NCBI GenBank assembly: GCA_028554795.2
Contig: JAPYKE020000037.1
Location: 2,854,501 to 2,918,500, forward strand
Length of the DNA: 64,000 nucleotides
Reading direction: 5' to 3'
From: Sinohyriopsis cumingii
Taxonomy: Eukaryota; Mollusca; Bivalvia; Unionida; Unionidae
Under the pieces are notes generated by a model. That model was not told the DNA's origin, did no database searches, and worked only from the letters and a program-made list of their open reading frames with translations. Within the stretch, counting starts at the first letter, position 1. Each line of letters begins with the position of its first letter. Shown one piece after another: positions 42,803 to 62,714 of this stretch. The translations under genes and the position numbers were made by a program.

Positions 42803-43088
42803 AGTAGTGAAGGGGGGCACTCTACGGACAATGGGAATTACCATTAAAAACACCCGTGGGTCACTCTACGGACAATGGAAATTTAACATGGCGAAAAATC
42901 GTGGGTCACTCTACGGACAAGGGGAATTTAACATGGGAATAAATCGTGGGTCACTCTACGGACAAAGGGAATTTAACATGGGATTTTTTTTAAATTTTAA
43001 AAAAAATTTTTTAAAAAAGGGGTAGGCAATTCAAAGGCTATCTCTTTTCGAGAAATATGGCTGGCCCTGAAAAGGGCCTTTGGGTTTT
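42803..43088 (+). repeat. Polinton left terminal inverted repeat
   Basis: 286 bp, matching 62,429-62,714 in reverse. It contains four tandem sub-repeats with the core GGGTCACTCTACGGACAA (spaced about 45-48 bp), an A/T-run segment at 42,984-43,018 and, on the minus strand, a histone-type 3' stem-loop at 43,063-43,078. A 72-codon frame from about 42,807 through the sub-repeats is a repeat by-product. Confidence 0.97.
43063..43078 (-). terminator. Histone-type mRNA 3' stem-loop, left TIR
   Basis: On the minus strand reads GGCCCTTTTCAGGGCC followed by AGCCA and, about 10 nt later, CTCGAAAAGAGATA. It lies 25 bp after the stop of the minus-strand ORF 43,104-43,337 and would end an outward-reading transcript. 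Confidence 0.75.
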
Positions 43089-43103
43089 ATGTTAATGTAT
43101 TCA

Positions 43104-43337
43104 TTAACATAAATGGCACCGCATTGGTCTTCTTCTTGTCCTTAGGCTGCGTCTTACTGTTGGTCCGTACATCAGCACTCTTTTCAGGCATCCTTGTCTT
43201 TCGACGTAGATCCTACGTATCCACAGGCTGGTGTTTGTCCTGTGGACAACGGTCCACTTCGATCGGACATACATGAGCAAGTCTGTCCGAAACATCATGG
43301 AAGACACAAGGGTGGATGACTCAACTGTAGTCCACAT
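43104..43337 (-). CDS. Small basic protein of the Polinton left end (candidate)
   Basis: 77 codons, not similar to anything I know. The C-terminal third is strongly basic (RRSLRTRRR) and ends CHLC. Evidence that it is real is contextual: a TATA box (TATAAATAA on the minus strand, 43,381-43,389) sits about 45 bp upstream of the ATG, the spacing used by other genes of the element, and a histone-type stem-loop follows the stop by 25 bp. A shorter overlapping frame from 43,191 (34 codons, MPEKSADV start) is possible instead. Confidence 0.45.
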   Translation of the reverse strand: MWTTVESSTLVSSMMFRTDLLMYVRSKWTVVHRTNTSLWIRRIYVERQGCLKRVLMYGPTVRRSLRTRRRPMRCHLC

Positions 43338-43380
43338 CTTGAAGCGACGAGAACAGGTGAATCAATGCATTGAACGGCGC

Positions 43381-43389
43381 TTATTTATA
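43381..43389 (-). promoter_or_regulatory. TATA box for the left-end minus-strand gene
   Basis: TATAAATAA on the minus strand, about 45 bp before the ATG at 43,337. On the plus strand the same site reads TTATTTATA, so weak bidirectional use is possible. Confidence 0.55.
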
Positions 43390-43422
43390 GGCGGAGGAAG
43401 GATTGAAACGGATTGAGTTCAT

Positions 43423-43510
43423 TTACCAATCCGAACACGCGTTACAGAATTCAGTCAGCTCGCATCCAATCCGAAGAGAGCAGTCTGTGACGTCACGTAG
43501 TCAATATAGA
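43423..43510 (+). promoter_or_regulatory. Promoter region of the 43,557 gene: CCAAT, CRE and TATA-like sites
   Basis: CCAAT occurs at about 43,424 and 43,466, the palindrome TGACGTCA (CRE/ATF type) at 43,488-43,495, and TATAGA at 43,505-43,510, about 50 bp before the ATG. Confidence 0.5.
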
Positions 43511-43556
43511 TTCGCTAGCGCTTGTGTGCAGTCAATCTATGCGACAGTGATTCAAC

Positions 43557-44132
43557 ATGACGGAAACTCAGAAAACGATCCAGTGGGGTGCACCAGCAGG
43601 GGAGACTGCCCAAGGGAACCCGGACTTACTTTCAGAAGAGGTGAATTGGGATTTTGTGGATTTTCTCTCCTCGCAAGAATTTGTTCCGGAACCTTCGTTA
43701 CTTTCTTCATTACCGCAAGTGGAGAATTTTAGACAGAGACAGAAAGAAGAATTGGAGAAATTTATACAACGACAAAAGGAAGCGGAACAGGCTTTTCTCC
43801 TACAGCAACAGCAACAAGAAGAAGAGGTAAGAAAAAAACAACAGCAACAACAGCAAGAAGAAGTAGCAGCAAAGGAACAAGAGGGTGAAAATCAAACGGT
43901 CACGGTACTGTTGGACATTTTAGCGGAGTTAAGAAGTCTGAAACAAATGTATCAGACTTCTTTATCACGACCGAAGAGAATACGACCTTCCCGAGCCAAA
44001 CACGTCAACCCTGTGACTAAGCCTACCGTACCACCCTTAGTGATTTCAACCCAATCATTATCATCATTACGCAGTCCAGAAGTAGGCCTTGGCCGTGGCA
44101 AAGGCTTAAGGCAGTTAAAATTGATTGCTTAA
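43557..44132 (+). CDS. Gln/Glu-rich coiled-coil protein, histone-type 3' end
   Basis: 191 codons. An acidic N-terminal 60 residues (NWDFVDFLSSQEF) is followed by a long coiled coil with Gln and Glu runs (about 63-105), a leucine-rich helix VTVLLDILAELRSLKQMY, and a basic tail. No family recognised. The gene is next to the left TIR, transcribed inward, and its stop is followed 28 bp later by the best histone-type stem-loop in the element. Upstream are CCAAT, CRE-like and TATA-like sites. The set of promoter, coiled-coil protein and stem-loop resembles the cassettes at the right end, so it may belong to the same early or S-phase class; that is inference. Confidence 0.7.
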   Translation: MTETQKTIQWGAPAGETAQGNPDLLSEEVNWDFVDFLSSQEFVPEPSLLSSLPQVENFRQRQKEELEKFIQRQKEAEQAFLLQQQQQEEEVRKKQQQQQQEEVAAKEQEGENQTVTVLLDILAELRSLKQMYQTSLSRPKRIRPSRAKHVNPVTKPTVPPLVISTQSLSSLRSPEVGLGRGKGLRQLKLIA

Positions 44133-44160
44133 ACTCACCCCTACACCATAAAGAAAAAAA

Positions 44161-44200
44161 GGCCCTTTTCAGGGCCACCCACATTTCTCGAAAAGAAATA
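44161..44200 (+). terminator. Histone-type mRNA 3' end (stem-loop, ACCCA, purine element)
   Basis: GGCCCTTTTCAGGGCC at 44,161-44,176, then ACCCA at 44,177-44,181, then CTCGAAAAGAAATA. This is exactly the metazoan replication-dependent histone pattern: a 6-bp stem with a 4-nt pyrimidine-rich loop, ACCCA, and a purine-rich U7-type downstream element. An A-rich stretch precedes it, as in histone mRNAs. Confidence 0.85.
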
Positions 44201-44333
44201 CAATTTCAATTTGCCAATAACTCAAAAATAACTCACCCATGTTACCCTTATAGTACGTGTCTGTGTATGAGTGCGTGAGTGTAGCTTCTTATTTTAAAAT
44301 CACAACTCAAAGACACTTACCTTATATCATTCA

Positions 44334-44339
44334 TTTATT
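44334..44339 (-). terminator. Poly(A) signal for the zinc-knuckle gene
   Basis: AATAAA on the minus strand about 90 bp after the stop at 44,426. No stem-loop is present there, so this gene appears to be conventionally polyadenylated. Confidence 0.55.
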
Positions 44340-44425: not shown

Positions 44426-44896
44426 TTAGTCTCTCTTTTTTTTGAATTTCTTCACCGTCACACTCTTTTCCTCTTCTTCCTCCTCGCTTTCTTCCCTTCT
44501 TCTTTTTTTCTCCTGTTTCTTTTTCTTCACCTGTCTTCTTTCTTCCTCAGAAGAATCCCTCTCTTCCTCTGAAGAATCCCTCTCTTCTTCTGAAGAATTC
44601 CTCTTTTCTTCCGACTCCTCTTGTTTCTTTTTTGGGCAATCTGGAGACCAATGTCCTTTTTCTTGACAATAATAACAGGTATCTTGACTTTTGTCTTTTT
44701 TATCCCCTGTTTTTTTTCTTTTTTGACGGTCTGGACATTCTGAAGACCAATGCCCTTTCTTCTGACAGATATAGCAAGTATCTTGACTTTTATCTCTAAA
44801 GGAAGGAGAGTAGTCCGTAGGCTGGTCTGAAGAGAATTTTCTAATGACCCCTCGCAAAGCTCTGACGAAACGTTCCATCTGGTTAGTCTCTTCCAT
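44426..44896 (-). CDS. Two-zinc-knuckle (CCHC) protein with charged repeats
   Basis: 156 codons from the ATG at 44,896, chosen because the TATA box at 44,951-44,957 lies only 8 bp above the longer frame's first ATG but 55 bp above this one. It contains two CCHC knuckles of the type C-x2-C-x4-H-x4-C (CYICQKKGHWSSEC and CYYCQEKGHWSPDC), as in retroviral nucleocapsid and other single-stranded nucleic-acid-binding proteins. Three EERDSSEE-type repeats and a Lys/Glu-rich tail follow. The charged SSEE repeats look like casein-kinase-2 targets. It is transcribed divergently from the DNA polymerase, suggesting a role in replication or in handling viral RNA or DNA; the exact role is unknown. Confidence 0.8.
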   Translation of the reverse strand: MEETNQMERFVRALRGVIRKFSSDQPTDYSPSFRDKSQDTCYICQKKGHWSSECPDRQKRKKTGDKKDKSQDTCYYCQEKGHWSPDCPKKKQEESEEKRNSSEEERDSSEEERDSSEEERRQVKKKKQEKKRRREESEEEEEEKSVTVKKFKKKRD

Positions 44897-45030: not shown

Positions 45031-48000
45031 ATGAAACGATCCCATTCATTCGAGAAGAAAAAAGAAGAAGAAAGTAAGAGGCAGAAACGTGATCTCTCGC
45101 CTCGAACCAGGGCTGAAATCTTGGCACAAATTCATGCCAGTGATTTTGAAGAGGACATGAGTGAACCAGAATCCCAGCCCTCTAAACCAAGTTCACCACC
45201 CTTAGTCAACCCTGAAAAGTACTATTCCATTCGAGAGACAGAAAAGCGCTCCTCTAGAAAATTTAGAACCACGGCTTACAAATACACGGTGAAGTTTAAA
45301 GATTTCAAGGCTGAAGTGCCGTTAGAGAAAGCAGAAGTGTTCATCACCGAGGTGTGGGATTCTTTGCTCACTGCACTCAAGCGACAATGTCAACCCAAAG
45401 AAGACGATCGCTTGAGACTTTCCATACAACACGACGGTTTGAAATCCCCTGTTTGGATCGAGTTTAGCACCCCTGCAGAATTGACTGCTTCCAAAGTCAT
45501 GGACAAGATTCAACACGTACAACAATCTAACGATCAGTTTGACATCACCGATGGTAAAGCCACACTGGACATGACCCACGTCTCTCCTCCTCAAGGGACA
45601 GGACGCAAAAAGATGTTATTGGTGGACGACCTTCGCAACACCAAAACGAGTCTCGTCCGAATTAACAACCCTCATGACCAGATGTGTTTAGCCCGTGCCA
45701 TCGTGGTGGGACGAACCTATGCCAACAAGAACGACACGGTAGAATGGAAAAGAACCTGGGACACTATTCAACGTTCCGACCGAGCCAAACAACGAAACGA
45801 AGCAGAACTCTTGTTACAACAAGCCGGACTGCCCAAAGACACACCCTGTGGCATTCCCGAGATGCAAAAATTGCAAGATGCCCTAGCTCCACGCTACACC
45901 TTGAAAGTGCACCCTCAAGAAGTGCGCGGACCTCTGTTGTTTCGAGGCCAAGACTTTAAGGATGGAAAATACATTCACCTTTATCATCACGATGAACATT
46001 TCGATACCATTACCAGTATCACTGGATTCCTGAGATATGTTTATTATTGTGAGAAATGTGACCATGGTTATAATAATCGAGAGCAACACAAGCATTGTGG
46101 ATCGAAATGCTTAGGATGTTTGGCCTCTCCACCCTGTCTGAGCGAAGAACCAGTGCCTTGTTCCACTTGTCTGCGCACGTTTGTCAGCCCTACCTGTTAC
46201 CAACAACATCTGAAAACGCAAGGTTCACAGAAGAAATGTGCTTGTCAACTCCTGAGATTGTGCCCTACGTGTGAACAAGTCATACGTACCAATAATGCCA
46301 AGGCACACGTATGTCGAGGAAAGAAAAAATGTCACATTTGTCACCACATCGTGGACTTGGAACACCAGTGTTACGTGCAAAAATACCAACCCCCACCAGA
46401 GAAAGACGACGGTCACAAGAAGAAAGGCAATTTCATCTTTTTCGATTTCGAATGCATGCAAGAGACCGGCATTCACATTCCTAATTTCTGCGTGGCTCAT
46501 CGAGCGTGCGAGAAGTGCATTCAAGAACCTATCTTCAGTCATTGCCCTCACTGCAGCAAGATTCCCGGAGGGCGTGAAAAAATCTTTCGGGGACCGAACA
46601 CGTTAGCCGATTTTGCCCAATGGGTCTTAGACCCCGTCGACAAGACGTGGAGCCAAGAGGACATCGAACGTTACGGAGATTGTCATCGTCATGCCACGGT
46701 GATGGCTCACAATTTCTCCGGATACGATGGACAGTTTCTTCTCAGATACTATACGGAACAAGGCACCGAACGTCCTAAAGTGACTTTGAACGGAGCCAAA
46801 ATCATTTTCATGCAAGTGGGACAAGTACAGTTTAAAGATTCAATGAGTTACTTGGCCATGCCTTTGAGTCGAATGCCTAAAACGTTTGGAATGACAGAAA
46901 TGGCTAAAGGGTACTTTCCACACTTTTTCAATACGGAAGCCAATCAACACGCCGTTCTACCCCATTTGCCCGAGGCTCACTATTACGACCCCGACAACAT
47001 GCGTACCGAACAACGAGAAGCTTTCTACGCTTGGTACCAGGCTCACGCCTCGGACCCTTTCGACTTTCAGGAAGAAATGTTAAAGTATTGTCGTTCCGAC
47101 GTGGACATTTTACGACGTTGCTGTGGAAAATTTCGAGAACTGTTCATGGAACACGGAGGGGTGGATCCTTTGAAAGAAGCTTGCACCATTGCCAAAGCGT
47201 GTTCCTTAGTGTACCGCCAACGATTCATGCCTGAAAACACCGTAGCTGTCATCAGCCCTCAAACGACCCACTTTGTCAAGCGTCAATACTCGGTCAAAGC
47301 CCTACGTTGGTTACATTACTTGTGCGACAAGGAAGACAAGTGGATTCAGCATGCCCGCAACGGAGGGGGCGAAAAGACCATCGGAACGTATTCGGTCGAT
47401 GGCTGGGACTTAGAAAACCCCAAGATCGTGTACGAGTTTAACGGTTGCTTATTTCACGGATGTCCCGTCTGTTACCCTGACCGTGGCACTAAAAATCAGT
47501 TTTTGCAACGAACCATGGAAGACTTGTACCAGGACACTTGTCAGCGACGCCTAAAGTTGGAACAGGAAGGATACCAAGTGGTGGAAATGTGGGAACACGA
47601 GTACGATCACCGTATGAAAACCGATCCCGAGTTTAAACGCCTCGTGGAAAGTTACCAGTTCATGGACCCGCTGAACCCGAGGGATAGTTTGTACGGAGGA
47701 AGGACCAATGCCACCTGTTTGCTGTACCAAGCCGACGAAGAGAAAGGAGAAGAAATCAAATACTTGGACGTGTGTTCGCTGTATCCCTACGTGTGCAAAT
47801 ATTGTCGCTTTCCTGTAGGGCACCCACAATTGCTGACGGAACACATCGACCTGAAAAACATTCGACAATACGAAGGCTTGATCAAGTGCAAAGTTTTGCC
47901 TCCCACGAACCTATACCATCCCGTCTTACCTCACCATTGTCAAGGCAAACTGATGTTTCCCTTGTGCCGTACTTGTGCCGAAACGTGCAACCAAGATCAG

Positions 48001-49083
48001 CTTTGTCAGCACACCCAGGAAGAACGGGCCTTGACGGGAACCTGGGTCAGCGTAGAATTGTTCAAAGCTCTGGACATGGGATACCAACTGTTAGAAGTGT
48101 ACGAAATTTGTCACTTTCCCAAGACACAACAATACCACAAGGGTGACCCTACTCAGAAAGGCATTTTCGCAGACTACGTGGATGCCTTTTTGAAACTGAA
48201 GCAAGAAGCCAGCGGCTATCCTTCCTGGTGTCACACTCCCGAAGACCAAATACAATTCAAAGAGAAATACCGGGAACAAGAAGGCATCACTTTAGACCAC
48301 ATCGAGAAAAACGAAGGCAGGCGATCGTTTGCCAAAGTGATGTTAAATTGCTTGTGGGGTAAAATGGCACAACGACCGTGTTTACCCAAGACGGAATATT
48401 TGACAGAACCTTCCCGCTACTTCCAGATGATTCACGACAAAACCAAATACATGAAACACGTGGACGTCGTTCGAGAGAATTTAATCTTGGTCAATTACGA
48501 AGAAGATCTGGACTTTGTACAAGACGACCCTTTTGGAAATGTCATCATTGCGGCTTACGTGACAGCCCATGCTCGCTTAAAATTGTACGAAGCTTTAGAA
48601 CTGTTAGGGGAACGCGTCCTGTACTTTGACACGGACAGTTGCATTTACATCCATCACCCGATTCAACATCACCCTAACATCGAAGGAGACCGTTTAGGAG
48701 CCTGGACAGACGAACATCCCGACGACAAGATTCTAAGTTTCGTCAGTGGCGGTCCCAAAAATTACGGCTACGAATACCGTGACAAACAAGGAGAAGTGCA
48801 CACGACGTGCAAAGTGAAAGGACTGACTCTGAATTATCGTACCAGTCGAGTGGTCAACTTTGGGGTATTGAAAGAAGCCTTGCAATCGGGAGAGGATGGA
48901 AACTTTAAAGTGACCACCTACCAACCGAACAAAATTGTACGTTTACCCACTCACCACATCGTCAGTCGGCCCTTGGAAAAAGTCTATCAAATTGTATACC
49001 AGAAGCGAGTTCGACTTCCCAATCATTTCACCTTACCGTACGGTCACGTCGGTATTGGTCTGTATATAAAAAAGGAACCCTAG
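45031..49083 (+). CDS. POLB: Protein-primed family B DNA polymerase
   Basis: 1,350 codons, full length. It replicates the linear element using a terminal protein primer. An N-terminal region of about 330 residues is followed by a Cys/His-rich zinc-finger zone (about 340-460). The proofreading exonuclease has FFDFE (Asp472, Glu474), NFSGYD (Asn561, Asp566) and YCRSD (Tyr686, Asp690). The polymerase motifs are DVCSLYP (Asp913), KVMLNCLWG (Lys1102, Asn1106, Gly1110) and YFDTDS (Asp1200, Asp1202). VYEFNGCLFHGC between the two halves is the TPR-type insertion zone of protein-primed enzymes. All catalytic residues are present. A TATA box lies 54 bp before the ATG, and the last codons overlap the TATA of the next gene. 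Confidence 0.98.
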   Translation: MKRSHSFEKKKEEESKRQKRDLSPRTRAEILAQIHASDFEEDMSEPESQPSKPSSPPLVNPEKYYSIRETEKRSSRKFRTTAYKYTVKFKDFKAEVPLEKAEVFITEVWDSLLTALKRQCQPKEDDRLRLSIQHDGLKSPVWIEFSTPAELTASKVMDKIQHVQQSNDQFDITDGKATLDMTHVSPPQGTGRKKMLLVDDLRNTKTSLVRINNPHDQMCLARAIVVGRTYANKNDTVEWKRTWDTIQRSDRAKQRNEAELLLQQAGLPKDTPCGIPEMQKLQDALAPRYTLKVHPQEVRGPLLFRGQDFKDGKYIHLYHHDEHFDTITSITGFLRYVYYCEKCDHGYNNREQHKHCGSKCLGCLASPPCLSEEPVPCSTCLRTFVSPTCYQQHLKTQGSQKKCACQLLRLCPTCEQVIRTNNAKAHVCRGKKKCHICHHIVDLEHQCYVQKYQPPPEKDDGHKKKGNFIFFDFECMQETGIHIPNFCVAHRACEKCIQEPIFSHCPHCSKIPGGREKIFRGPNTLADFAQWVLDPVDKTWSQEDIERYGDCHRHATVMAHNFSGYDGQFLLRYYTEQGTERPKVTLNGAKIIFMQVGQVQFKDSMSYLAMPLSRMPKTFGMTEMAKGYFPHFFNTEANQHAVLPHLPEAHYYDPDNMRTEQREAFYAWYQAHASDPFDFQEEMLKYCRSDVDILRRCCGKFRELFMEHGGVDPLKEACTIAKACSLVYRQRFMPENTVAVISPQTTHFVKRQYSVKALRWLHYLCDKEDKWIQHARNGGGEKTIGTYSVDGWDLENPKIVYEFNGCLFHGCPVCYPDRGTKNQFLQRTMEDLYQDTCQRRLKLEQEGYQVVEMWEHEYDHRMKTDPEFKRLVESYQFMDPLNPRDSLYGGRTNATCLLYQADEEKGEEIKYLDVCSLYPYVCKYCRFPVGHPQLLTEHIDLKNIRQYEGLIKCKVLPPTNLYHPVLPHHCQGKLMFPLCRTCAETCNQDQLCQHTQEERALTGTWVSVELFKALDMGYQLLEVYEICHFPKTQQYHKGDPTQKGIFADYVDAFLKLKQEASGYPSWCHTPEDQIQFKEKYREQEGITLDHIEKNEGRRSFAKVMLNCLWGKMAQRPCLPKTEYLTEPSRYFQMIHDKTKYMKHVDVVRENLILVNYEEDLDFVQDDPFGNVIIAAYVTAHARLKLYEALELLGERVLYFDTDSCIYIHHPIQHHPNIEGDRLGAWTDEHPDDKILSFVSGGPKNYGYEYRDKQGEVHTTCKVKGLTLNYRTSRVVNFGVLKEALQSGEDGNFKVTTYQPNKIVRLPTHHIVSRPLEKVYQIVYQKRVRLPNHFTLPYGHVGIGLYIKKEP
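49063..49070 (+). promoter_or_regulatory. TATA box of the BIR gene, inside the polymerase 3' end
   Basis: TATATAAA within the last codons of POLB, about 60 bp before the ATG at 49,129. Confidence 0.65.
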
Positions 49084-49128: not shown

Positions 49129-49872
49129 ATGAATACTTTGAAAGAGACATCGTTCCAGTTTGGGGATTGTAAAAAAGTTGTATCTTCCTCTAGTGTGACT
49201 AATATTGGATGGATAAGACCCATGCATTGCGACGGAAAATGTCCGGAAGGAAACTGCGATTGTCCATGTGGTTACCATTGTAATTGCGTAACGGAGTTTG
49301 CAGACGAGTGCGATTGTGAGCCTTGTGATGGGACCGATGCTGTACCTTGTGACCTGAGCGATGCCGTAAAGCATCATGGGAACTTTAGTGCCCCTACCCC
49401 TGTCATGGAAAGTGATGCTGTGCGTGTCAAACCTGTGGGATGCGAAAGCGATGCTGCTCGTCCTCTTGGACATTTTACTGGGTTTCGTTTTAAAGGGGAA
49501 TGTCGACCTTCACGTTTACCTCCCTACGGATGTCATCCAGCCCTGAGCAAACTCCTACCCATTTCACTCAACCCTCATCGAAACGAACCTGTGAAAAACG
49601 AATATTCGTTTCCTGTGCGTTCGTCGGAATACTGCGACTTTGAAAATCGTCTTCAATCGTTCAAAGGAAAATGGCCAAAGTATCTGGGAGGACCGACCCC
49701 CGAAGAATTAGCCAGAGCCGGATTTTTCTACTTGGGCGAAGGAGATAAAGTCAAGTGCTTCAGTTGCGGTGTGTCACTTCACCACTGGGAACCGCAAGAT
49801 TCGGCCTACGTAGAACATGCTCGATGGTCACCGAATTGTCATTACTTACCTTTAGTGGAACCGAGACATTGA
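49129..49872 (+). CDS. BIR-domain (IAP-like) protein with Cys-rich N-terminus
   Basis: 247 codons. The C-terminal 85 residues form one BIR domain: zinc ligands Cys210, Cys213, His230 and Cys237 in exact C-x2-C-x16-H-x6-C spacing, preceded by LARAGFFYLGEGDKVKCFSC and followed by a short end. BIR domains bind caspases or IAP-binding motifs; baculoviruses and entomopoxviruses carry IAPs that block host cell death. There is no RING domain, so ubiquitin-ligase activity is not expected. Residues about 35-70 are extremely Cys-rich and metallothionein-like, which is unusual. The likely role is keeping the infected cell alive; this is inferred from the family. It is probably a host-derived gene captured by the element. 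Confidence 0.9.
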   Translation: MNTLKETSFQFGDCKKVVSSSSVTNIGWIRPMHCDGKCPEGNCDCPCGYHCNCVTEFADECDCEPCDGTDAVPCDLSDAVKHHGNFSAPTPVMESDAVRVKPVGCESDAARPLGHFTGFRFKGECRPSRLPPYGCHPALSKLLPISLNPHRNEPVKNEYSFPVRSSEYCDFENRLQSFKGKWPKYLGGPTPEELARAGFFYLGEGDKVKCFSCGVSLHHWEPQDSAYVEHARWSPNCHYLPLVEPRH

Positions 49873-49900
49873 AGTAACTTCTTACCATAATCATCTGTTC

Positions 49901-50356
49901 ATGGATACTTTACAAGAGAACATTTGTGCTTTGCCTGTGGAGTTGAGAGAACGCATTTACCGAGAGCTGGTCAAAATACAAGTGAAACGTAAAGAACAAT
50001 TGCATCCGATACGTCACCGGTGTTTGAACCACTGGTACCTGAAGGCTATACAAGGACTGATTCAATTGAAAGTGTTCCATTGGACAGACATTGATCAACG
50101 ACCTCCTGGTTATAAAAAGGAATGGTTTGGTATTGACGATTCTATTTACTACATTGTAAACGTATTGCATCGAATTCCAGAGGAAGAGTTAACGAATTAC
50201 CAACATCTTTCACACAATGTCAACTTGGTGAAAGAGGAAACTTCTGAACGAATTGTAATGTGTAGATTAGTGACTCAACGATTTAAATTCGACACTGAAG
50301 TGAAACCATGTTTGTGCAAAGAGTACATTTCTTGTGTCAGACCAAAGAGGATTTAG
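49901..50356 (+). CDS. Tandem paralogue 1, F-box-like N-terminus
   Basis: 151 codons. It starts MDTLQENICALPVELRERIY; the LPVELRERIYREL stretch resembles the first helices of an F-box, although the motif is short and not decisive. The remainder is basic and helical, of unknown function, ending in a Cys-containing tail. The first 42 or so codons are almost identical to those of the gene that follows, while the rest has diverged strongly. If the F-box reading is right, the protein could link a target to an SCF ubiquitin ligase, as poxvirus and other viral F-box proteins do. Confidence 0.7.
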   Translation: MDTLQENICALPVELRERIYRELVKIQVKRKEQLHPIRHRCLNHWYLKAIQGLIQLKVFHWTDIDQRPPGYKKEWFGIDDSIYYIVNVLHRIPEEELTNYQHLSHNVNLVKEETSERIVMCRLVTQRFKFDTEVKPCLCKEYISCVRPKRI

Positions 50357-50368
50357 TATGACCTATTC

Positions 50369-51685: not shown

Positions 51686-52429
51686 ATGGCTACCTCTACT
51701 GTCTCTGCTCCCTCTTATTCTACTGTCAAAGTCATCGACGAACACTTAGATCGTGCCAGTTGGGAGGCTTTGTATCTTCGCCATCCCTTTAACATGCTCA
51801 TTGCTGGACCTAGCGGTTCAGGCAAAACCGAATTCGTCAAACGTTTGATCGAACATAAACATCATTTGATCGATCGGCCCCCTCAACGGATCGTGTGGTG
51901 TTACAAAGAGTGGCAATCGGCGTACAACCTCTTGCGAGAAAGTCAAGGCGATTCCATCGTGTTTGTGGAAGGCATTCCTAAAGAAGACGACGGCATCGTC
52001 TCTGACTCCCGTCTAACCCATTTGGTCATTTTCGACGACATGTTAGGAGAAGACGAAGAAGAAATTAAATTGTGGTTCACGCGCAAAGGGCATCACCGTA
52101 ATGCCAGTGTCGTTTACATCACCCAAAATTTGTTTCAACAAAGTAAAGCCCATCGCACCATCAGTCTCAATGCGCATTACGTGGTCTTGTTTAAAAGCCC
52201 TCGAGATAAATCGCAAGTGCAAGTCTTAGCCAAACAGTTAGGAACGCCTTGGCTGACTCAGGCGTACGACGATGCCACTCAAACGCCACACGCCTATTTA
52301 CTCGTCGATTTGAAACCTACGACCCCCGAGGATTTGCGATTTCGTACCCACTTGTTTCACCACTGGTGCCAAGACGGAGGGCCTGTCCTGTACACGTCTC
52401 CGTCCTCGACTTCATTTCACTCCCCATGA
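51686..52429 (+). CDS. ATPase: Genome-packaging ATPase (FtsK/HerA type)
   Basis: 247 codons from the TATA-supported ATG. It is the motor that would drive genome packaging into capsids. Walker A is GPSGSGKT at residues 41-48 and Walker B is LVIFDDM at about 113-119. A later YITQNLF fits the sensor segment. The size is normal for Polinton ATPases and all key residues are present. Confidence 0.95.
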   Translation: MATSTVSAPSYSTVKVIDEHLDRASWEALYLRHPFNMLIAGPSGSGKTEFVKRLIEHKHHLIDRPPQRIVWCYKEWQSAYNLLRESQGDSIVFVEGIPKEDDGIVSDSRLTHLVIFDDMLGEDEEEIKLWFTRKGHHRNASVVYITQNLFQQSKAHRTISLNAHYVVLFKSPRDKSQVQVLAKQLGTPWLTQAYDDATQTPHAYLLVDLKPTTPEDLRFRTHLFHHWCQDGGPVLYTSPSSTSFHSP

Positions 52430-54596: not shown

Positions 54597-55709
54597 ATGG
54601 AAAAAGTCTTAGCCAGCATTTACTACGATCCCTCGCATCCTGCAGGTTACGCAGGAGTTCAAAAATTGTATCGTGCTGCCAAAACGCGACTGAAAAGTCT
54701 CCGTTTACCTCAAGTGCAACGATGGTTACAAGAACAAGCTACCTACACTTTACACAAACCCATTCGACGCAAGTTTGCCAGAAGTCGCACCCGAGTGGAA
54801 GGCATCGATCATCAATGGCAAGCCGATTTAGCCGATGTCTCTCATTTGGCCAGCTACAATCGTGGTTACAAATATTTGTTTTGTGTCATCGACGTCTTTT
54901 CCAAATTTGCCTGGGTCGTGCCCTTGACTTCCAAATCGAGCAGCGAGTTAGTGCGAGCCCTGCAACGGGTGTTGAAACAAAGCGGTCGTCGCCCTCTTCG
55001 ATGGCAAACGGACAAAGGCACCGAATTTCTGAACCAAGCTTTCCAGAAAGAATTAAAGAAACGTGACATTCATTTTTTTACCACCGAGAATCCCGAAACC
55101 AAAGCCAGCATCGTGGAACGTTTTCAACGCACTTTGAAAGAACGCATGTGGAAATATTTTACGCATCACCACACTCTGAAGTACATCGACATCTTACCGC
55201 ACCTGGTGCAAGCGTACAACCAATCTTACCATCGAAGCATCGGACGTGCCCCGCAAGACGTGACTCCCGAGAACGAAGTGCTGGTGTTTGAGCGCCTGTT
55301 CGGTACGTCCCCGACGAGGGCTGTCCCCAAGAAAAGTGGAGAGTTGGCCGTAGGAGATTGGGTGCGCATTGGCAAAACCAAACGCACTTTCGACAAAGGT
55401 TACTTACCTAACTGGACGACCGAATTGTTTCGCGTCACTGGACGAGTACATGGCCGTCATCCTGTCGTCTATAAATTGGAAGACATGAACGGAGAAGTAC
55501 TCAAAGGAACGTTTTATTTGCCCGAGTTACAACGTGTCACCAAAAAAGAAGACGACGTGTACGACATCGAAAGCATTCTCGAACGCAGAACCCGTAAAGT
55601 GGGCAAACGACGTGTCAAAGAAGTCAAAGTACGTTGGAAAGGATATCCACCCAGTTTCGATTCTTGGATCGACGCTTCGCAAGTCATCGACTATAAAAAG
55701 AAGAAGTGA
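54597..55709 (+). CDS. INT: Retroviral-type integrase with chromodomain
   Basis: 370 codons from the ATG at 54,597 (the longer frame begins at a GTG). It joins the element's ends to host DNA. The catalytic core has Asp77 (WQADLADV), Asp139 (WQTDKGTEF) and Glu174 (ASIVERFQRT), so the D,D-35-E-type triad is complete. The C-terminal 50 or so residues, with VRWKGYPPSFDSWI, are a chromodomain, which may direct integration to particular chromatin. Standard Polinton INT, intact. Confidence 0.97.
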   Translation: MEKVLASIYYDPSHPAGYAGVQKLYRAAKTRLKSLRLPQVQRWLQEQATYTLHKPIRRKFARSRTRVEGIDHQWQADLADVSHLASYNRGYKYLFCVIDVFSKFAWVVPLTSKSSSELVRALQRVLKQSGRRPLRWQTDKGTEFLNQAFQKELKKRDIHFFTTENPETKASIVERFQRTLKERMWKYFTHHHTLKYIDILPHLVQAYNQSYHRSIGRAPQDVTPENEVLVFERLFGTSPTRAVPKKSGELAVGDWVRIGKTKRTFDKGYLPNWTTELFRVTGRVHGRHPVVYKLEDMNGEVLKGTFYLPELQRVTKKEDDVYDIESILERRTRKVGKRRVKEVKVRWKGYPPSFDSWIDASQVIDYKKKK

Positions 55710-55714: not shown

Positions 55715-56137
55715 ATGCCCTTTCACACAGCAGCAGACGCAGCTACGTCGACCACTCCTTCTTCACCTAGTTCTTCTGTGCAAGATTTACAAAAACAACC
55801 CTTGTGGGTGTGGTGTGGAGAACGTGTGCCTAAAACGCAAATCGTCTTTTTCTGCCAAATCTTCGTGGTGTATTGTGTCATCGGGGCAGCCATTGCCAAT
55901 TTGAGTTTGCAACAAGGAGACAAACAATTGTGGACCATTTTATTGAGCAGTTGCATCGGTTACCTGCTTCCCAATCCCTCCCTGAAATTCTCCTCGAACG
56001 GGAACCCCGGGAACCTTGTGTCCAGTGCCAGTGTCAGTCACCAGTCCAACAACTACAACCAGAACCCCATTTTGGACGGAGACACGCCTCTGACGTCCAC
56101 TAACCCCTCGGACAGCCACAGAACTCTAGAATTATGA
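55715..56137 (+). CDS. Two-membrane-segment protein
   Basis: 140 codons. The central part VPKTQIVFFCQIFVVYCVIG and LWTILLSSCIGYLLPNP contains two hydrophobic segments, with a polar Ser/Thr/Asn-rich tail. This ERVPK...LSSCIGYLLPNP pattern is a recurring small protein of Polintons and adintoviruses; its job is not known to me, perhaps a virion or envelope-associated membrane protein. Its stop overlaps the next start (ATGA). Confidence 0.8.
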   Translation: MPFHTAADAATSTTPSSPSSSVQDLQKQPLWVWCGERVPKTQIVFFCQIFVVYCVIGAAIANLSLQQGDKQLWTILLSSCIGYLLPNPSLKFSSNGNPGNLVSSASVSHQSNNYNQNPILDGDTPLTSTNPSDSHRTLEL

Positions 56138-57069
56138 GTCACCAAAACCAATTTTACTTAACCTTACCCAGTGACAGTTCCATGGAGGTGTTTCCCAACA
56201 ACACGTTGTGCTGTTACACGGCCAAATTACCTCAAGCCATCCCCTTAGATCACGAAGCCCATTGGGAAGTGGCTTTAGTAGAAATGATTCACCCGACCCA
56301 AGTCCTCAATGTCCTTCCCAATCAAAATAAATTTGATGTGGAAGTTCTTGACGAGCAATTGCAACAGGAGTTGGATAAGAGAGTTACCATATCTGACATT
56401 AAAACCTATAATGAGAAAACTCAAAAGTCGACCTACCACTTGTCCATTCTCCCAGGCTATTATTTCAGTGGTCAACATTTGGTCAACACCATAGCTACCA
56501 AGTTTAATGGCGTGTTTGGGAAAGCTTTTGACAATGTCAAGAACAAAAGTGTCACCATGGAGTACCACAAAGTAGCTCGTCGCTTCTTGATGAAATTTGA
56601 GCGGAGTAAAATCATGTCCATTTTATTTTGTCCTGAATTGTATGACATGTTGGGCGGAGACATGAACATGAGAACGATCATACTCAATAACAACGAATTA
56701 CCCATCGTTTACGACAACGAGTCTTTTAGCAAGTTATTTCGTACCCCGGTAGAACTGAACCAAGGACTGAATTTGATGTTTGTGTATTCCGATGTGGTGG
56801 AGTACAACGTGGTGGGACACACCTCCGTACCGTTACTGCGTGTCATTCCTTTCAAAGTGGATTCTGCCGCGAACGCTGACGAGGAAGGTGGAAACACTTA
56901 CCACGTCCACCGCGAATTTGTCCATCCTCACTATTTGCCGGTCAGCAAGTCGTATTTGGACACGGTCAACATTACTATAAAAGGAGATTTGGGACAAAAT
57001 ATTCCATTCACCAAAGGAAAAGTCACGGTGAAACTCCATTTTCGAAAACGGTTCTCTCACGATTCGTAA
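56134..57069 (+). CDS. mCP: Minor capsid (penton-type, single jelly-roll) protein
   Basis: 311 codons. The N-terminus FYLTLPSDSSMEVFPNNTLC leading into HWEVALVEMIHP is the usual signature of the Polinton penton homologue, expected to form a single jelly-roll and sit at capsid vertices. Full length, no breaks. It precedes the other virion genes, as in most Polintons. Confidence 0.9.
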   Translation: MSHQNQFYLTLPSDSSMEVFPNNTLCCYTAKLPQAIPLDHEAHWEVALVEMIHPTQVLNVLPNQNKFDVEVLDEQLQQELDKRVTISDIKTYNEKTQKSTYHLSILPGYYFSGQHLVNTIATKFNGVFGKAFDNVKNKSVTMEYHKVARRFLMKFERSKIMSILFCPELYDMLGGDMNMRTIILNNNELPIVYDNESFSKLFRTPVELNQGLNLMFVYSDVVEYNVVGHTSVPLLRVIPFKVDSAANADEEGGNTYHVHREFVHPHYLPVSKSYLDTVNITIKGDLGQNIPFTKGKVTVKLHFRKRFSHDS

Positions 57070-57509: not shown

Positions 57510-58808
57510 ATGATGCACCGAGAGTCTTGCGCTTGTTCCAAAACGGAACTGGATCTGTTTGCCATGCCCCCCACCATGATGACGATGCAAGAATCCCAGT
57601 GGGTGGAATTTCACCCAGTCTCCTCATTGACCGATTCCGCTCCCATCGAGTTTGAAATCAAAGGACAGCCCGAAGATTACATCGATCTGAATAGCAGTTA
57701 TTTGTACTTAAAAGTCAAAGTTCTAGATAAGGATGATGGTGGAATAGATGACACTGAGAATATAGCTCCCGTCAACAATTTCATGCATTCCTTGTTCAGC
57801 TCAGTGGACTTGTACTTGAATAACAAACTGGTCAGCAGCAGCATGGATACTTACCCTTACCGTGCCTACCTGGAGAATCTCTTGACGTACGGAATAGATG
57901 CCAAGGATACTCATCTCAATGCCTGTGTGCTGTGGGAACCTGACGAAGCGGGCAAGTTCGACCTTGTAGATGGAACCAATAGCGGCTTTGAGCAAAGAGA
58001 AATCAAAATCTTAGACAAGAGGAGTTTAGAACTGATGGATCGTTTGCATTTGGACATGTGGTTGCAAGAGAAGTATTTGCTGAACGGGGTCAATGTCCGC
58101 CTCAGACTGAATCGCAGCAGTACCGCTTTCCATTTGTTGGCTGATGCTACTAAGGCTCCTAAAAGCAAAATCGAAGAGGCCAAACTCTACGTACGACGTG
58201 TGGAAGTGTTACCCAAAGTAGGTAACGACATCAGTCAAACGTTGAGCAGAACAACCGCCAAGTATCCCATACGACGTGTGGAAGTGAAAACGTTCACCAT
58301 TCCCGCTAACCATCATTCCATGATCGAAGATCATCTGTTTCAAGGACAGTTAACCAAACGTTTAATCCTTGGCATGGTCGAGAATTCAACCTTCAACGGA
58401 CACTTCGCTAAAAATCCTTTCAACTTTCAGCACTTCAACGTGAAGAAAATCGAAGTCAGTCGCGATGGCAAGACCTTGTGTACCAGACCTTTCGAACCCG
58501 ACTTTGCCAAGAACAATTACTTGAGATCGTACTTGTCCTTGTACGAAGCCACGGGCCAGTTAGGAACCAACACCAGTCACGGCATTACGTACGACGATTA
58601 TGCAGGAGGCTATGCTTTGTGGGCTTTTGATTTCACTCCAGACCAGGGCAGCGACGAGGGACATTTCCACCCTATAAAATCAGGCCAGATTCGTGTGGAA
58701 CTTCAGTTTGCAAAGCCACTGGACGAGACAGTGAACGTCATCCTGTATGCAGAATTTGATAATACCATAGAAATCAACAGTTTGAGAGAAGTCATCCTAG
58801 ATTACTAG
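57510..58808 (+). CDS. MCP: Major capsid protein (double jelly-roll)
   Basis: 432 codons. Recognised by PIEFEIKGQPEDYIDL and VNNFMHSLFSSVDLYLNNKL with YPYRAYLENLLTYG, the usual N-terminal jelly-roll segments of the Polinton/adintovirus hexon. A second block (FQGQLTKRLILGMVENSTFN and PFNFQHFNVKKIEVSRDG) matches the other jelly-roll. Trimers of this fold form the capsid faces. Complete, with no stop or frameshift. Confidence 0.95.
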   Translation: MMHRESCACSKTELDLFAMPPTMMTMQESQWVEFHPVSSLTDSAPIEFEIKGQPEDYIDLNSSYLYLKVKVLDKDDGGIDDTENIAPVNNFMHSLFSSVDLYLNNKLVSSSMDTYPYRAYLENLLTYGIDAKDTHLNACVLWEPDEAGKFDLVDGTNSGFEQREIKILDKRSLELMDRLHLDMWLQEKYLLNGVNVRLRLNRSSTAFHLLADATKAPKSKIEEAKLYVRRVEVLPKVGNDISQTLSRTTAKYPIRRVEVKTFTIPANHHSMIEDHLFQGQLTKRLILGMVENSTFNGHFAKNPFNFQHFNVKKIEVSRDGKTLCTRPFEPDFAKNNYLRSYLSLYEATGQLGTNTSHGITYDDYAGGYALWAFDFTPDQGSDEGHFHPIKSGQIRVELQFAKPLDETVNVILYAEFDNTIEINSLREVILDY

Positions 58809-59323: not shown

Positions 59324-59884
59324 ATGGATACCTGGGAACTTTATTACCTTTTGAACCACAGTTCGTATACGGCTTCTTGGAATCCTGTTGTCTGTGCTAA
59401 AGATGAACTCCCTCATCGCAAACCTAAAGACCATCAAGCTTACGTGATCAACACGGACGACAGTCATCTCCCAGGAACCCACTGGGTAGCCGTCTACTTT
59501 CCTCAAGAAGGATGTGTGGAATATTTCGATTCGTACGGATTGCCCCCTTTGGAAGACGATATCATTGACTTTATGAGAAGAAATGCTCAAACCACCCGAT
59601 TCAATAATGTGAAATTACAAGGCACAGATTCCTTGGTGTGTGGACAGTACTGTGTGTATTTTCTGCATCATCGCAGCCTGGGCTATTCCTTAGAACATTT
59701 AGTGACTCATTTCGATCCTCGTTCTTCTGCTAGAAATGATGTGAAAGTAGATCGATGGTTTTGTGACCATTATGCTTATCTTTTGTCTCAAGCTAGGAAA
59801 CGTAGTGTCCATCAATGGCCTAATGATTTCCAACAGTGGAAATCACAATTTCATTCACAACGTTGTCAGCCCTGTTTAAAGTAG
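59324..59884 (+). CDS. PRO: Adenovirus-type maturation cysteine protease
   Basis: 186 codons. Catalytic residues in adenain/ULP1 order: His53 (GTHWVAVYF), Asp69 (EYFDSYG), Gln99 and Cys106 (LQGTDSLVCGQYC); the Gln-to-Cys distance of seven equals that in adenain. Expected to cleave virion precursor proteins during maturation. Complete. Confidence 0.95.
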   Translation: MDTWELYYLLNHSSYTASWNPVVCAKDELPHRKPKDHQAYVINTDDSHLPGTHWVAVYFPQEGCVEYFDSYGLPPLEDDIIDFMRRNAQTTRFNNVKLQGTDSLVCGQYCVYFLHHRSLGYSLEHLVTHFDPRSSARNDVKVDRWFCDHYAYLLSQARKRSVHQWPNDFQQWKSQFHSQRCQPCLK

Positions 59885-60127: not shown

Positions 60128-60157
60128 GGGGGATGTTTTCCTTCACGTCCGCGCTTT
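60128..60157 (+). promoter_or_regulatory. Shared upstream box, cassette 1
   Basis: Block with the core TTTTCCTTCACGTCCGCG, shared with 61,014-61,043 and 61,744-61,772. The ATG follows 64 bp later. No clear TATA here (TTTAAGA). Confidence 0.8.
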
Positions 60158-60220: not shown

Positions 60221-60601
60221 ATGTGCTCCAAACTAGCTAAGCTCAACGAAGCCTACGTGAATCTGCATAGGGTCAGACACAGTCTGATACCGAAGCCAGA
60301 AGAAATAGAGAATGTGAGAATGTTAAAAATCACTGAAGACCTGATAGAAGAGCTCTTCAGAGAAGAAATGAACAGGGAAAAAGAAGAATGGACAGAGAAG
60401 TACAGACTTCAGAGACAGCAGCAACAGCAGCAGCAACAGCAGCAGCAACAGCAGCAGCAGCAGCAGCAGCAGCAACCTGAAGCTGACAGAGGCTTTGTCG
60501 ATTGTCGTATCGACACCAAAGAATTCTTCTTCTCTTTCCGAAGAAGCAGACCTATCGCCAGAAAGTCTATCCTCAGAGGACATCGCATTCTTAGAAACTA
60601 A
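60221..60601 (+). CDS. Right-end cassette protein 1, coiled coil with Gln run
   Basis: 126 codons from the ATG at 60,221. The N-terminal helix KLAKLNEAYVNLHRVRHSLI is matched by cassette protein 2 (LEKLLELHVHLEYARRIL). A Glu/Lys-rich coiled coil follows, then a CAG/CAA run of about 20 Gln and a basic tail (RRSRPIARK). The stop is 29 bp before a histone-type stem-loop. Unknown function; one of three related cassettes. Confidence 0.7.
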   Translation: MCSKLAKLNEAYVNLHRVRHSLIPKPEEIENVRMLKITEDLIEELFREEMNREKEEWTEKYRLQRQQQQQQQQQQQQQQQQQQQQPEADRGFVDCRIDTKEFFFSFRRSRPIARKSILRGHRILRN

Positions 60602-60630
60602 AAAAGAATGCCATAGCAAAACAAAAAAAC

Positions 60631-60670
60631 AGCCCTTTTCAGGGCTACCCAATACTCTAGAAAAGAAATA
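60631..60670 (+). terminator. Histone-type mRNA 3' end, cassette 1
   Basis: AGCCCTTTTCAGGGCT at 60,631-60,646, ACCCA at 60,647-60,651, then CTAGAAAAGAAATA. The outer pair has changed from G-C to A-T with pairing kept, compared with the other copies. Confidence 0.85.
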
Positions 60671-61013
60671 ACCATCAATTTGCCAATGTGTAGGTAGAGT
60701 AGTGTGAAAATAAACACTAACTCTTTTATAAAAATGTGAGGGTATGTGTTGGTGTGTTTGTGTTTGTAAGAGCTCAAGTAAGTTGGTGTGAATAGTAGAT
60801 TAAAATGATATCTTTTTTAGGACTGTTTGAGGTGTATATTTGGGGTTAGATTGGATTGCCTTGCGTATGTGGATAGTCTATTGAAGTGATTGATAAAAAA
60901 TTTTACAATAGTGATGGGTAGCATAAAAAGTGAGTGAGTGTTTCTTTTAGGTCCGCGCGTTGTTGTTGTTGTTTTATGGTCATGATCTAGGTAAGATGAA
61001 TTTTATGTTTTTA
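60671..61013. other. Spacer between cassettes 1 and 2
   Basis: Noncoding. The first 150 bp are matched after cassette 2 (TGTAGGTAGAGTAGTGTGAA and following), showing duplication of the cassette. A partial box GGTCCGCGCG occurs at about 60,950. Confidence 0.7.
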
Positions 61014-61052
61014 GGGGGATGTTTTCCTTCACGTCCGCGCTTTCAGTATAAA
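61014..61052 (+). promoter_or_regulatory. Shared upstream box and TATA, cassette 2
   Basis: Box at 61,014-61,043 directly followed by TATAAA at 61,047-61,052; the ATG lies 54 bp after the TATA. Confidence 0.85.
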
Positions 61053-61105
61053 TTGAAACTCGTTCGGCAGTCCAGCTACCCTTGTTGATTGATCAACACC
61101 AAAAA

Positions 61106-61468
61106 ATGAACACGAGACTTGAGAAACTGTTGGAGCTTCATGTGCATCTGGAATATGCCAGGCGCATATTAAACGAACTGGCCGCGGAAGCCATTGTCGA
61201 GGAGGGAAGGATAAGAGAGGAGGAAAGAAGAAACAAAGAAGAGGAGGAGAAAAGATATAAAGAAGAAGAAGAAAGAAGATATAAAGAGGAAAGAAGAAAC
61301 AAAGAAGAGGAGGAGGAAAAGGAGAGAAGAAATTTCAAAATCCCAGAGAGCGAAAATTGGGATTCTGAAGCGACATATCCTGCCTCTGCTCTCTCCCCCC
61401 AAAAGGTAAAAAGTAACTGGGGGATAAGATGTGTATGCGGCGCCAGGCCTGGAAGGTGCCACCATTAA
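61106..61468 (+). CDS. Right-end cassette protein 2, Glu/Arg coiled coil
   Basis: 120 codons. Helix LEKLLELHVHLEYARRILNE, then an uninterrupted charged coiled coil of RYKEEEE/RRNKEEEE repeats (about 45-85) and a tail ending CVCGARPGRCHH, with Cys and His that might bind metal. The stop is 29 bp before the stem-loop. Paralogous to cassette 1. Confidence 0.7.
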   Translation: MNTRLEKLLELHVHLEYARRILNELAAEAIVEEGRIREEERRNKEEEEKRYKEEEERRYKEERRNKEEEEEKERRNFKIPESENWDSEATYPASALSPQKVKSNWGIRCVCGARPGRCHH

Positions 61469-61497
61469 CCAGGTGTCCATGAAGTTCCAAACAAAAC

Positions 61498-61537
61498 AGC
61501 CCTTTTCAGGGCTACCCAATACTCTAGAAAAGAAATA
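61498..61537 (+). terminator. Histone-type mRNA 3' end, cassette 2
   Basis: AGCCCTTTTCAGGGCT at 61,498-61,513, ACCCA at 61,514-61,518, then CTAGAAAAGAAATA. Identical to the cassette 1 copy through this part. Confidence 0.85.
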
Positions 61538-61743
61538 ACGATAGATTTGCCAATGTGTGTAGGTAGAGTAGTGTGAAAATAAACACTAACTCTTTATTAA
61601 TAGTGGAAGTGTATGTGTTTGTATGTTTGTGTTTGTAAGAGCTCTGGTATGTTAGTGTGAATAGTAGATTATAGGTTTTTTTATTGTTTCTTAGCGCATG
61701 TGGAGAGTATAGTTGTGGTTATATTATATGAAATGAGAAAGTA

Positions 61744-61781
61744 GGGGATGTTTTCCTTCACGTCCGCGCTTTCACTATAAT
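61744..61781 (+). promoter_or_regulatory. Shared upstream box and TATA, cassette 3
   Basis: Box at 61,744-61,772 and TATAAT at 61,776-61,781; the ATG lies 57 bp downstream. Confidence 0.82.
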
Positions 61782-61832
61782 AACCCACTACGTTCGTCGT
61801 TCGAACCATTCTACGGAATAATAAAAACGAAG

Positions 61833-62282
61833 ATGGTGGTTGCAAGTGACTTGTTCAACAATTTGGTACATATATACAACTGGATAATAGATGGTATCTA
61901 TGTAGTGGAGAGACTGGAAAAAGAATGGAAGATAGCAGAGTACCTGGACTACGCTAAATGTCTAAACATAGCCAAAGAAGTGATAGCAGGAATGATTGAA
62001 GAGGAGGAAAAAAGATTGAGAGGTATGATAAATCCCACCTATGTCAGAGTGGGAAGCCTAAAGGAAGCACTTGACAATGCAAGCAAAGTCAGGTGCTTTC
62101 TTGAAAAAATGTCACATGGGACAGAGTGCTCTTATGTGGAGAGAGGCCAGGAAAGACTGAGGAAAGGAGAGGAGTTGATGAGAAAAGTGATGGAGGTAGA
62201 AGTCAAGAAGATTAAAGAGAGATGGTATAAAGAAAGAAAAGAAGAAGAAAATAGAAAAAAAGGGATGAATTTGAAAAACTGA
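61833..62282 (+). CDS. Right-end cassette protein 3, coiled coil, possibly frameshifted
   Basis: 149 codons. Helical, with MIEEEEKRLRGM and a Lys/Glu-rich end; related in style to cassettes 1 and 2 but less close in sequence. The frame closes at 62,282 shortly after an A7 run at about 62,254-62,260. Another frame stays open from there to a stop at 62,416, just before the stem-loop, with charged and Trp-rich composition like a continuation. So a 1-base slip in the A run has either broken the gene or is a sequence error. The last part of the transcript lies in the right TIR. Confidence 0.65.
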   Translation: MVVASDLFNNLVHIYNWIIDGIYVVERLEKEWKIAEYLDYAKCLNIAKEVIAGMIEEEEKRLRGMINPTYVRVGSLKEALDNASKVRCFLEKMSHGTECSYVERGQERLRKGEELMRKVMEVEVKKIKERWYKERKEEENRKKGMNLKN

Positions 62283-62428
62283 ACACAAACTGGATGAAAA
62301 TCCAAGAGAAGTTCAGGGCCATGGGCCACCCGGACTGGCTGCCGGAAACAGAAAAGAAAAAGAAGAAAGGAATGATGAACAAAATAAGAGGATGGTGGAA
62401 GAAGTTAAGAAGTTAAAAAGAAGAAGAA

Positions 62429-62714
62429 AAAACCCAAAGGCCCTTTTCAGGGCCAGCCATATTTCTCGAAAAGAGATAGCCTTTGAATTGCCTACCCCTT
62501 TTTTAAAAAATTTTTTTTAAAATTTAAAAAAAATCCCATGTTAAATTCCCTTTGTCCGTAGAGTGACCCACGATTTATTCCCATGTTAAATTCCCCTTGT
62601 CCGTAGAGTGACCCACGATTTTTCGCCATGTTAAATTTCCATTGTCCGTAGAGTGACCCACGGGTGTTTTTAATGGTAATTCCCATTGTCCGTAGAGTGC
62701 CCCCCTTCACTACT
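62429..62714 (-). repeat. Polinton right terminal inverted repeat
   Basis: Inverse of 42,803-43,088, same length, no difference seen. Contains the cassette 3 stem-loop and the four sub-repeats. Followed by the target duplication ACTAAT at 62,715-62,720. Confidence 0.97.
62439..62475 (+). terminator. Histone-type mRNA 3' end, right TIR
   Basis: GGCCCTTTTCAGGGCC at 62,439-62,454, preceded by CCAAA, followed by AGCCA and CTCGAAAAGAGATA. Serves cassette 3. Its mirror copy lies in the left TIR. Confidence 0.8.

Follow-up and report, generated by a model that had tools for sequence, protein, structure and literature searches.

Why should genes at the ends of a virus-like mobile element finish in the way that replication-dependent histone genes of animals do? 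This question is raised by a Polinton/Maverick element of the bivalve Sinohyriopsis cumingii, which occupies positions 42,803-62,714 (19.9 kb) of a 64-kb stretch of contig JAPYKE020000037.1 (forward strand, 2,854,501 to 2,918,500). We refer to the whole stretch as the window and give all coordinates within it unless stated otherwise. Five genes lie toward the ends of the element, L1 and L2 on the left and R3, R2, and R1 on the right, and each is followed by a histone-type stem-loop and a purine-rich histone downstream element (HDE). Judged from sequence, these five genes very probably carry true replication-dependent histone 3' ends with processing of the SLBP/U7 type. The observed basis for this reading consists of the cis-elements themselves, their placement at gene ends, their match to the histone genes of the host, and their conservation in diverged copies.

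The sequence-only reading of this locus had listed five exact copies of a 16-nt stem-loop, each 22-30 bp after a stop codon, and all five are present at those positions and on those strands. The L1 copy lies on the minus strand (43063..43078) within the left terminal inverted repeat (TIR), with its HDE, GAAAAGAGATA, at 43039..43049, also on the minus strand. The remaining four are on the plus strand: that of L2 at 44161..44176 (HDE GAAAAGAAATA, 44190..44200), those of R3 and R2, which have an A-U closing pair, at 60631..60646 and 61498..61513 (HDE GAAAAGAAATA in both, 60660..60670 and 61527..61537), and that of R1, within the right TIR, at 62439..62454 (HDE GAAAAGAGATA, 62468..62478). In each case the HDE lies 13 nt past the stem-loop. 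The loop is UUUC, and AAA precedes the stem in most copies. Measured distances from stop codon to stem-loop are 25 nt for L1, 28 for L2, 29 for R3, 29 for R2, and 22 for R1, in keeping with the range claimed. The R1 frame is interrupted in the window copy: 156 nt separate the stop of the long open reading frame (ORF; 61,833-62,282) from the stem-loop, and a second frame has its stop only 22 nt away. Nine of 12 related right-end loci have an ORF of at least 40 amino acids (aa) whose stop is 15-21 nt upstream of the terminal stem-loop.

These matches are far more frequent than chance would allow. With up to three mismatches permitted, the window holds 6 stem-loop matches against 0.58 expected, and none of 100 shuffles reached 6; a structure-based scan of all 64 kb returned the five stem-loops and nothing else. 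Comparison with the Rfam covariance model RF00032 (Histone3) by cmscan bears out the identification, as three of the five copies exceed the gathering score of 34: that of L2 (match at 44,156, 41.2 bits) and the two TIR copies (43,083-43,038 on the minus strand and 62,434, 35.6 bits each). No window gene other than the five end genes is followed by such a stem-loop, and the core replication and capsid genes there have none of the histone-type end signals. The 43,063 and 62,439 copies sit in opposite arms of one TIR, and a duplication (94% identity over 69 nt) gave rise to those at 60,631 and 61,498; the five therefore represent three lineages (TIR, L2, and R2/R3) rather than five independent occurrences.

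If these signals are of the histone type, they should resemble those of the host. The histone genes of S. cumingii are arranged in tandem arrays that repeat about every 8.27 kb, and three of these genes, H3, H4, and H2B, were compared with the element. The stem-loop of H3, GGCCCTTTTTAGGGCC, lies 28 nt past the stop codon, with ACACAAATGTCTAGAAAAGAGCTAA after it. That of H4 is identical, lies 27 nt past the stop, and is followed by ACAAAAAGAACTAGAAAAGATAATAAA; H2B has GGCCCTTTTCAGGGCC 34 nt past its stop, followed by ATACATATCTCTAGAAAAGATGTAA. The stem is common to the Polinton and all three genes. The H2B stem-loop is identical to the TIR and L2 copies of the Polinton, and that of H3 and H4 differs by one loop base. 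All three host genes carry the CTAGAAAAGA downstream element, and GAAAAG begins exactly 13 nt past the stem in 3/3 host genes and in 3/3 Polinton types. The histone layout proposed for the element, with its downstream element, thus agrees with the host's own histone ends in both sequence and spacing, and the distances from the stop codon (27-34 nt in the host genes, 22-29 nt in the element) are similar. In the wider comparison with metazoan replication-dependent histone 3' ends, the stem-loop, UUUC loop, stop distance, HDE, and 13-nt spacing are shared; what differs is that in the element they follow non-histone genes of a virus-like mobile element. In another bivalve, Lucina pectinata, all histone mRNAs found carry the stem-loop and some have a purine-rich element nearby, according to passages of PMC6210712.

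Two of the stem-loops lie inside TIRs, and the element must replicate its ends, so one might ask whether the palindrome works at the DNA level, for instance by forming a hairpin or binding a protein during replication of the terminal repeats or during packaging, its likeness to histone signals being incidental. We regard this as very improbable. Three of the copies are internal, all are in the sense orientation of the gene that they follow at 22-29 nt past the stop, the histone-type UUUC loop is kept, and both the HDE and its distance of 13 nt agree with host histone genes. A DNA site would not need an HDE at all.

The reading that these are histone-type mRNA ends also draws on the many copies of the element in the host assembly (2.9 Gb, 1138 contigs). 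A search with RF00032 scored 75 places out of 589,472 first-look candidates; this number is a lower bound, and all 75 were above the cut-off. The 30 best of these 75 were examined, and all 30 proved to be Polinton ends with a tblastn match to an end gene of the window (E at most 2e-21 for the best gene); 7 of the 30 match R2 only, a low-complexity protein that was searched by tblastn without masking. A histone peptide motif was found at none of the 30. The longest tblastn matches to R1, R2, and L2 at these loci are 43-95% identical to the proteins of the window. With the L2 protein as query, 34,262 candidates in the genome yielded 150 scored copies, all of them free of internal stops; with a divergent major capsid protein (MCP) as query, 27,652 candidates yielded 97 scored copies, of which 95 lack a stop. 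The element thus belongs to a family of high copy number in which many copies are open.

Such abundance invites another explanation, namely, that the stem-loop RNAs are decoys that titrate host SLBP and U7, lower the supply of histones, and keep viral DNA free of nucleosomes, with processing of the viral 3' ends being secondary. A decoy would need the same elements, and the many copies per genome, with 150/150 scored L2 copies open, would suit it. The signals stand precisely after coding genes that have promoter-like sequences of their own, which makes a decoy as the primary role unlikely; this role would nevertheless be compatible with histone-type processing of the element's own messages.

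How well are the signals kept as copies diverge? Among 30 of the 150 loci found with the L2 protein, which are close relatives of one another, the TIR stem-loops are exact in 30/30 and the L2 stem-loops in 29/30, the remaining one keeping its pairing as G-U. For a wider set, we took further stem-loops within 1.5 kb of a ranked one at the RF00032-ranked loci, that is, stem-loops that had not been used for ranking. One is present at 23 of the 30 loci; the other 7 show none by the criteria used here, through loss or because it falls outside the examined piece. Eleven R2-type copies (9 relatives plus R2 and R3 of the window) and eleven L2-type copies (10 relatives plus L2 of the window) were aligned. 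Of the 24 columns of stem-loop plus HDE, 22 are invariant in each type. Mean pairwise identity in the R2 type is 0.99 for the stem-loop, 0.97 for the HDE, 0.90 for the spacer, 0.54 for the 5' flank, and 0.86 for the far 3' flank; the corresponding values in the L2 type are 0.99, 0.94, 0.84, 0.75, and 0.70. Only 2/24 columns of the R2-type 5' flank are invariant (P = 5e-9 versus stem-loop plus HDE), as are 20/59 of the L2-type 3' flank (P = 1e-6). Placement is kept as well. Across 60 loci, half of which are near-identical L2 copies, 101 of 113 stem-loops have an ORF of at least 60 aa ending within 150 nt upstream, and the gap is 18-28 nt in 94 of those 101.

Pairing is intact throughout: 11 distinct stem-loop sequences, 3 of them from host histone genes, have a 6-bp stem and a 4-nt loop, and 66/66 cells are paired. 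Three versions of the outer pair occur (G-C, A-U, and G-U) and two of the second pair (G-C and G-U). One relative (L032) has the loop UUUA, with the Rfam consensus base. A TTGCC element (mostly ATTTGCCAAT) was also observed 29-35 nt past the stem-loop in 11/11 R2-type and 10/11 L2-type copies, including 44206-44215 and 60679-60688 in the window; no known histone element is expected there.

It is also important to set out the results that weigh against histone-type 3' ends in this element. The R3 and R2 copies (matches at 60,626 and 61,493) reach 31.0 bits (E = 2.2e-5), just under the RF00032 gathering score. The R2-type 3' flank is itself fairly conserved (39/59 columns invariant, P = 0.026) and the L2-type 5' contrast is modest (14/24 flank columns invariant, P = 0.017), so that each type shows one strong and one weak flank contrast. 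Covariation is modest too, as only one pair changed on both sides and 403 of 500 shuffles reach that. The sequence-only reading had taken the differing outer pair, with pairing kept, as a sign of selection on structure; the kept pairing stands, and the double-sided changes are no more frequent than in shuffles. The nearly fixed columns of stem-loop and HDE are better evidence of selection than covariation is. All copies, moreover, come from one host genome. Two further Polinton pieces without a stem-loop were met with in other databases (L007, QGON01000029.1; L008, NZ_JASJAV010000039.1), and as they hardly cover the ends of their elements, they are not evidence of absence. The genes in question are filed under bacterial metagenome-assembled genomes (a tubeworm symbiont and Breoghania) and evidently represent eukaryotic contamination.

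The host's U7 small nuclear RNA (snRNA) is a further point of this kind. A search of the host genome with the U7 model RF00066 gave no match over the cut-off. A pattern with CTTTT and a U7-type Sm site brought up CTTTTAAAGAATTTGTCTAG, which occurs eight times on one strand at C10:118969412-119022033, with 5 of 7 gaps exactly 2,588 bp, and is a candidate U7 array. This pattern search gave 56 matches compared with 76 for the reversed control, and it is only the tandem arrangement that points to U7.

Polyadenylation signals bear on the same issue. In R2 and R3 of the window, AATAAA follows the stem-loop at a distance of 62-64 nt, which makes poly(A) ends possible for these two genes. One may therefore picture the genes as polyadenylated in normal infection, with the stem-loop as an optional second 3' end, as in H2A.X and other histone genes with two kinds of end. 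Among the 11 R2-type copies, only these two have AATAAA in the 110 nt beyond the stem-loop, and 0/11 of the L2 type do; ATTAAA is likewise missing within that distance from the 9 other R2-type copies and from 11/11 L2-type copies, and we consider dual ends as the general arrangement unlikely. Elsewhere in the element, AATAAA or ATTAAA occurs within ~110 nt after the ORF ending at 51,596, after the protease gene (AATAAA 111 nt past the stop), and after the zinc-knuckle gene (ATTAAA 34 nt and AATAAA 87 nt past the stop). Most other core ORFs have neither signal within 400 nt, and because of this, the missing AATAAA at the end genes is weak evidence for ends without poly(A).

A second signal, absent from the sequence-only reading, lies upstream of the three right-hand genes. 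The host H4 gene has a single GTCCGCGC box, which lies 8 nt upstream of TATAAT and 70 nt upstream of the start codon. The same box stands 71-74 nt before the ATG of R3 (60147..60154, then TTTAAG), R2 (61033..61040, then TATAAA), and R1 (61762..61769, then CTATAA), all on the plus strand and each ahead of a TATA-like site, an arrangement that recalls the HiNF-P/subtype-specific element of histone H4 promoters. In addition, the element and a 3.4-kb host piece with H3 and H4 share strings of up to 21 nt. The longest, TTTCTTTTAGGTCCGCGCGTT, includes GTCCGCGC, forms a distal box on the plus strand at 60941..60961, and is found in the H4 promoter; 50 shuffles in blocks of two gave at most 16 nt, and two 20-kb host stretches of the window gave 15 and 14 nt. 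The window also has one antisense GTCCGCGC, inside the DNA polymerase B (PolB) gene at 45,931. At related right-end loci, the box is present in 12/12, with 31 copies in sense and 0 in antisense orientation; TATA follows within the next 14 nt for 15 of the 31, and 11 pairs of boxes are 65-74 nt apart. The remaining 18 of the 30 RF00032 pieces have 2 boxes, both in one piece (L024). No box was found in the 30 pieces chosen by L2 protein, and L1 and L2 therefore lack it.

As to the factor that might read this box, the HiNF-P motif contains CGTCCGC. Our literature search found no paper stating the HiNF-P site. In mammals, HiNF-P binds the subtype-specific element of H4 promoters and recruits NPAT, as passages of PMC5706932 describe. 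The H4-like boxes of R1-R3, together with their histone-type ends, suggest that genes of the element are tied to the host program of DNA replication.

The 21-nt stretch equal to part of the H4 promoter and the identity with the H2B stem-loop could also mean that both signals are functionless relics of captured host histone genes. This seems hardly probable. The proteins of L2, R3, R2, and R1 have no histone match and nothing else above the Pfam cut-offs, and the 3' elements are nearly fixed although identity in the 5' flank has fallen to 0.54 (R2 type) and 0.75 (L2 type). The boxes, for their part, keep their sense orientation and the 65-74 nt spacing of pairs, and relics would decay.

If the five ends are of the histone type, host SLBP would bind the stem-loop and the U7 small nuclear ribonucleoprotein would pair with the GAAAAGA element (the HDE), after which CPSF73 would cleave just past the stem-loop, after the ACCCA/AGCCA region. 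The messages would end in the stem-loop without poly(A), and their stability would be limited to the time in S phase when SLBP is present. At R1-R3, the H4-type promoter (GTCCGCGC box plus TATA-like site) would add S-phase transcription by an H4-type activator, and both transcription and mRNA fate would then follow the histone program. We infer the use of SLBP and U7, the lack of poly(A), the S-phase timing, and a factor at the promoter box from the signals described above. In some linear DNA viruses, such as adenoviruses, early genes lie at the genome ends, and by analogy, the end genes of the Polinton may act early. Somewhat more probable than its negation is the broader view that the element has taken over the whole histone-gene program, with H4-type promoters at the right-end genes, SLBP/U7-type ends on all five, and early or regulatory expression in S phase, possibly at the histone locus body, both signals having been kept by selection while the proteins diverged.

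The end points of the element, 42,803 and 62,714, are exactly those given by the earlier reading, and a perfect 6-bp target-site duplication (TSD), ACTAAT, flanks it on either side. The TIRs (42803..43093 on the plus strand and 62424..62714 on the minus strand) are 291 nt each, with 2 mismatches between the arms, and each contains a stem-loop and HDE. Next to the left TIR are L1 (43104..43337, minus; 77 aa, basic), which has related sequences at the RF00032-ranked loci, and L2 (43557..44132, plus; 191 aa). The predicted structure of L2 is a single long helix (residues 53-136; predicted template modelling score 0.25) and offers no fold usable for a structure search. The region between these two genes (43338-43556) is likely a two-way promoter; it contains a TGACGTCA site, CCAAT boxes, and, toward L1, a TATA box. 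The well conserved C-terminal tail of L2, VGLGRGKGLRQLK, has GRGKG in common with histone H4, where this motif is part of the N-terminal tail. Passages of PMC12819152 propose repression of histone promoters by the H4 tail, acting through NPAT; that the L2 tail mimics it is a guess on our part. The right-hand genes, all on the plus strand, are R3 (60221..60601; 126 aa), R2 (61106..61468; 120 aa, charged and coiled-coil-like), and R1 (61833..62416).

Between them lie a zinc-knuckle (CCHC) gene on the minus strand without a stem-loop (44426..44896; Pfam) and, on the plus strand, genes for PolB of the organellar/viral type (45031..49083; PF03175, 1.4e-42), a BIR (IAP-like) protein (49129..49872; Pfam), an A32-like packaging ATPase (51686..52429; PF04665, 1.3e-7, 31.8 bits with a cut-off of 22.8), and an rve integrase with chromodomain (54597..55709; PF00665, 2.2e-14). 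The genes at 56134..57069 and 57510..58808 have no Pfam match; they encode probable minor and major capsid proteins, respectively, the former assigned by its position. The MCP-like protein has 1193 relatives in the protein database, and the named ones among the 120 listed are mostly bivalve (Mercenaria, Crassostrea, Ostrea, and Saccostrea). A probable adenovirus-type protease (59324..59884) matches PF00770 weakly, with 16.2 bits against a cut-off of 21.3. PolB, the integrase with chromodomain, the A32-like ATPase, the TIRs, and the 6-bp TSD are thus shared with animal Polintons/Mavericks and adintoviruses, and the capsid and protease genes probably so; compared with known Polintons, this element adds the histone-type 3' signals and H4-type promoter boxes at its end genes. 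The ORFs at 49,901 and 50,369 (49890-50566) form a tandem duplication with 87% identity over 209 nt. A degenerate minisatellite with units of ~30 bp surrounds the element (41519-42792 and 62727-63229), and a host ORF at 24553-25884, with partial guanylate cyclase and HNOBA matches, is probably an exon of a host receptor.

Has anything of this kind been reported before? In a survey of 8,300 Polinton-like virus (PLV) and virophage genomes (PMC12220804; Rfam 14.8, gathering cut-offs), six matches to Rfam Histone3 were recorded. Matches in its cryptophyte PLVs were only tRNAs and group I introns, i.e., none of the six is there. Its main text gives the six without discussion, gene context, HDE, host comparison, or function. 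The claim of the sequence-only reading that no prior description exists must therefore be narrowed: bare stem-loop matches had already been counted, and it is the layout at gene ends, the HDE, the match to the host, the conservation, and the promoter for which our literature search found no description. Titles and abstracts in the open-access library that was searched yielded no paper on histone-type 3' ends in Polintons. A pattern scan of IMG/VR returned 6 stem-loop stretches, none of which passes RF00032 or shows a histone-like 3' end on inspection, and we attribute them to chance. MCP and PolB scans of the viral contig collection found no relatives.

Should histone-type processing of the end-gene messages be borne out, no virus-like element before this one would have been shown to make non-polyadenylated messages of the histone type, and the six Histone3 matches left without comment in PMC12220804 may be additional examples. 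The element would also be a natural reporter of the histone pathway, and its signals would explain how an integrated DNA virus might time its expression to the replication of the host. Given its high copy number, it could compete with the host's histone genes for SLBP, U7, or NPAT.

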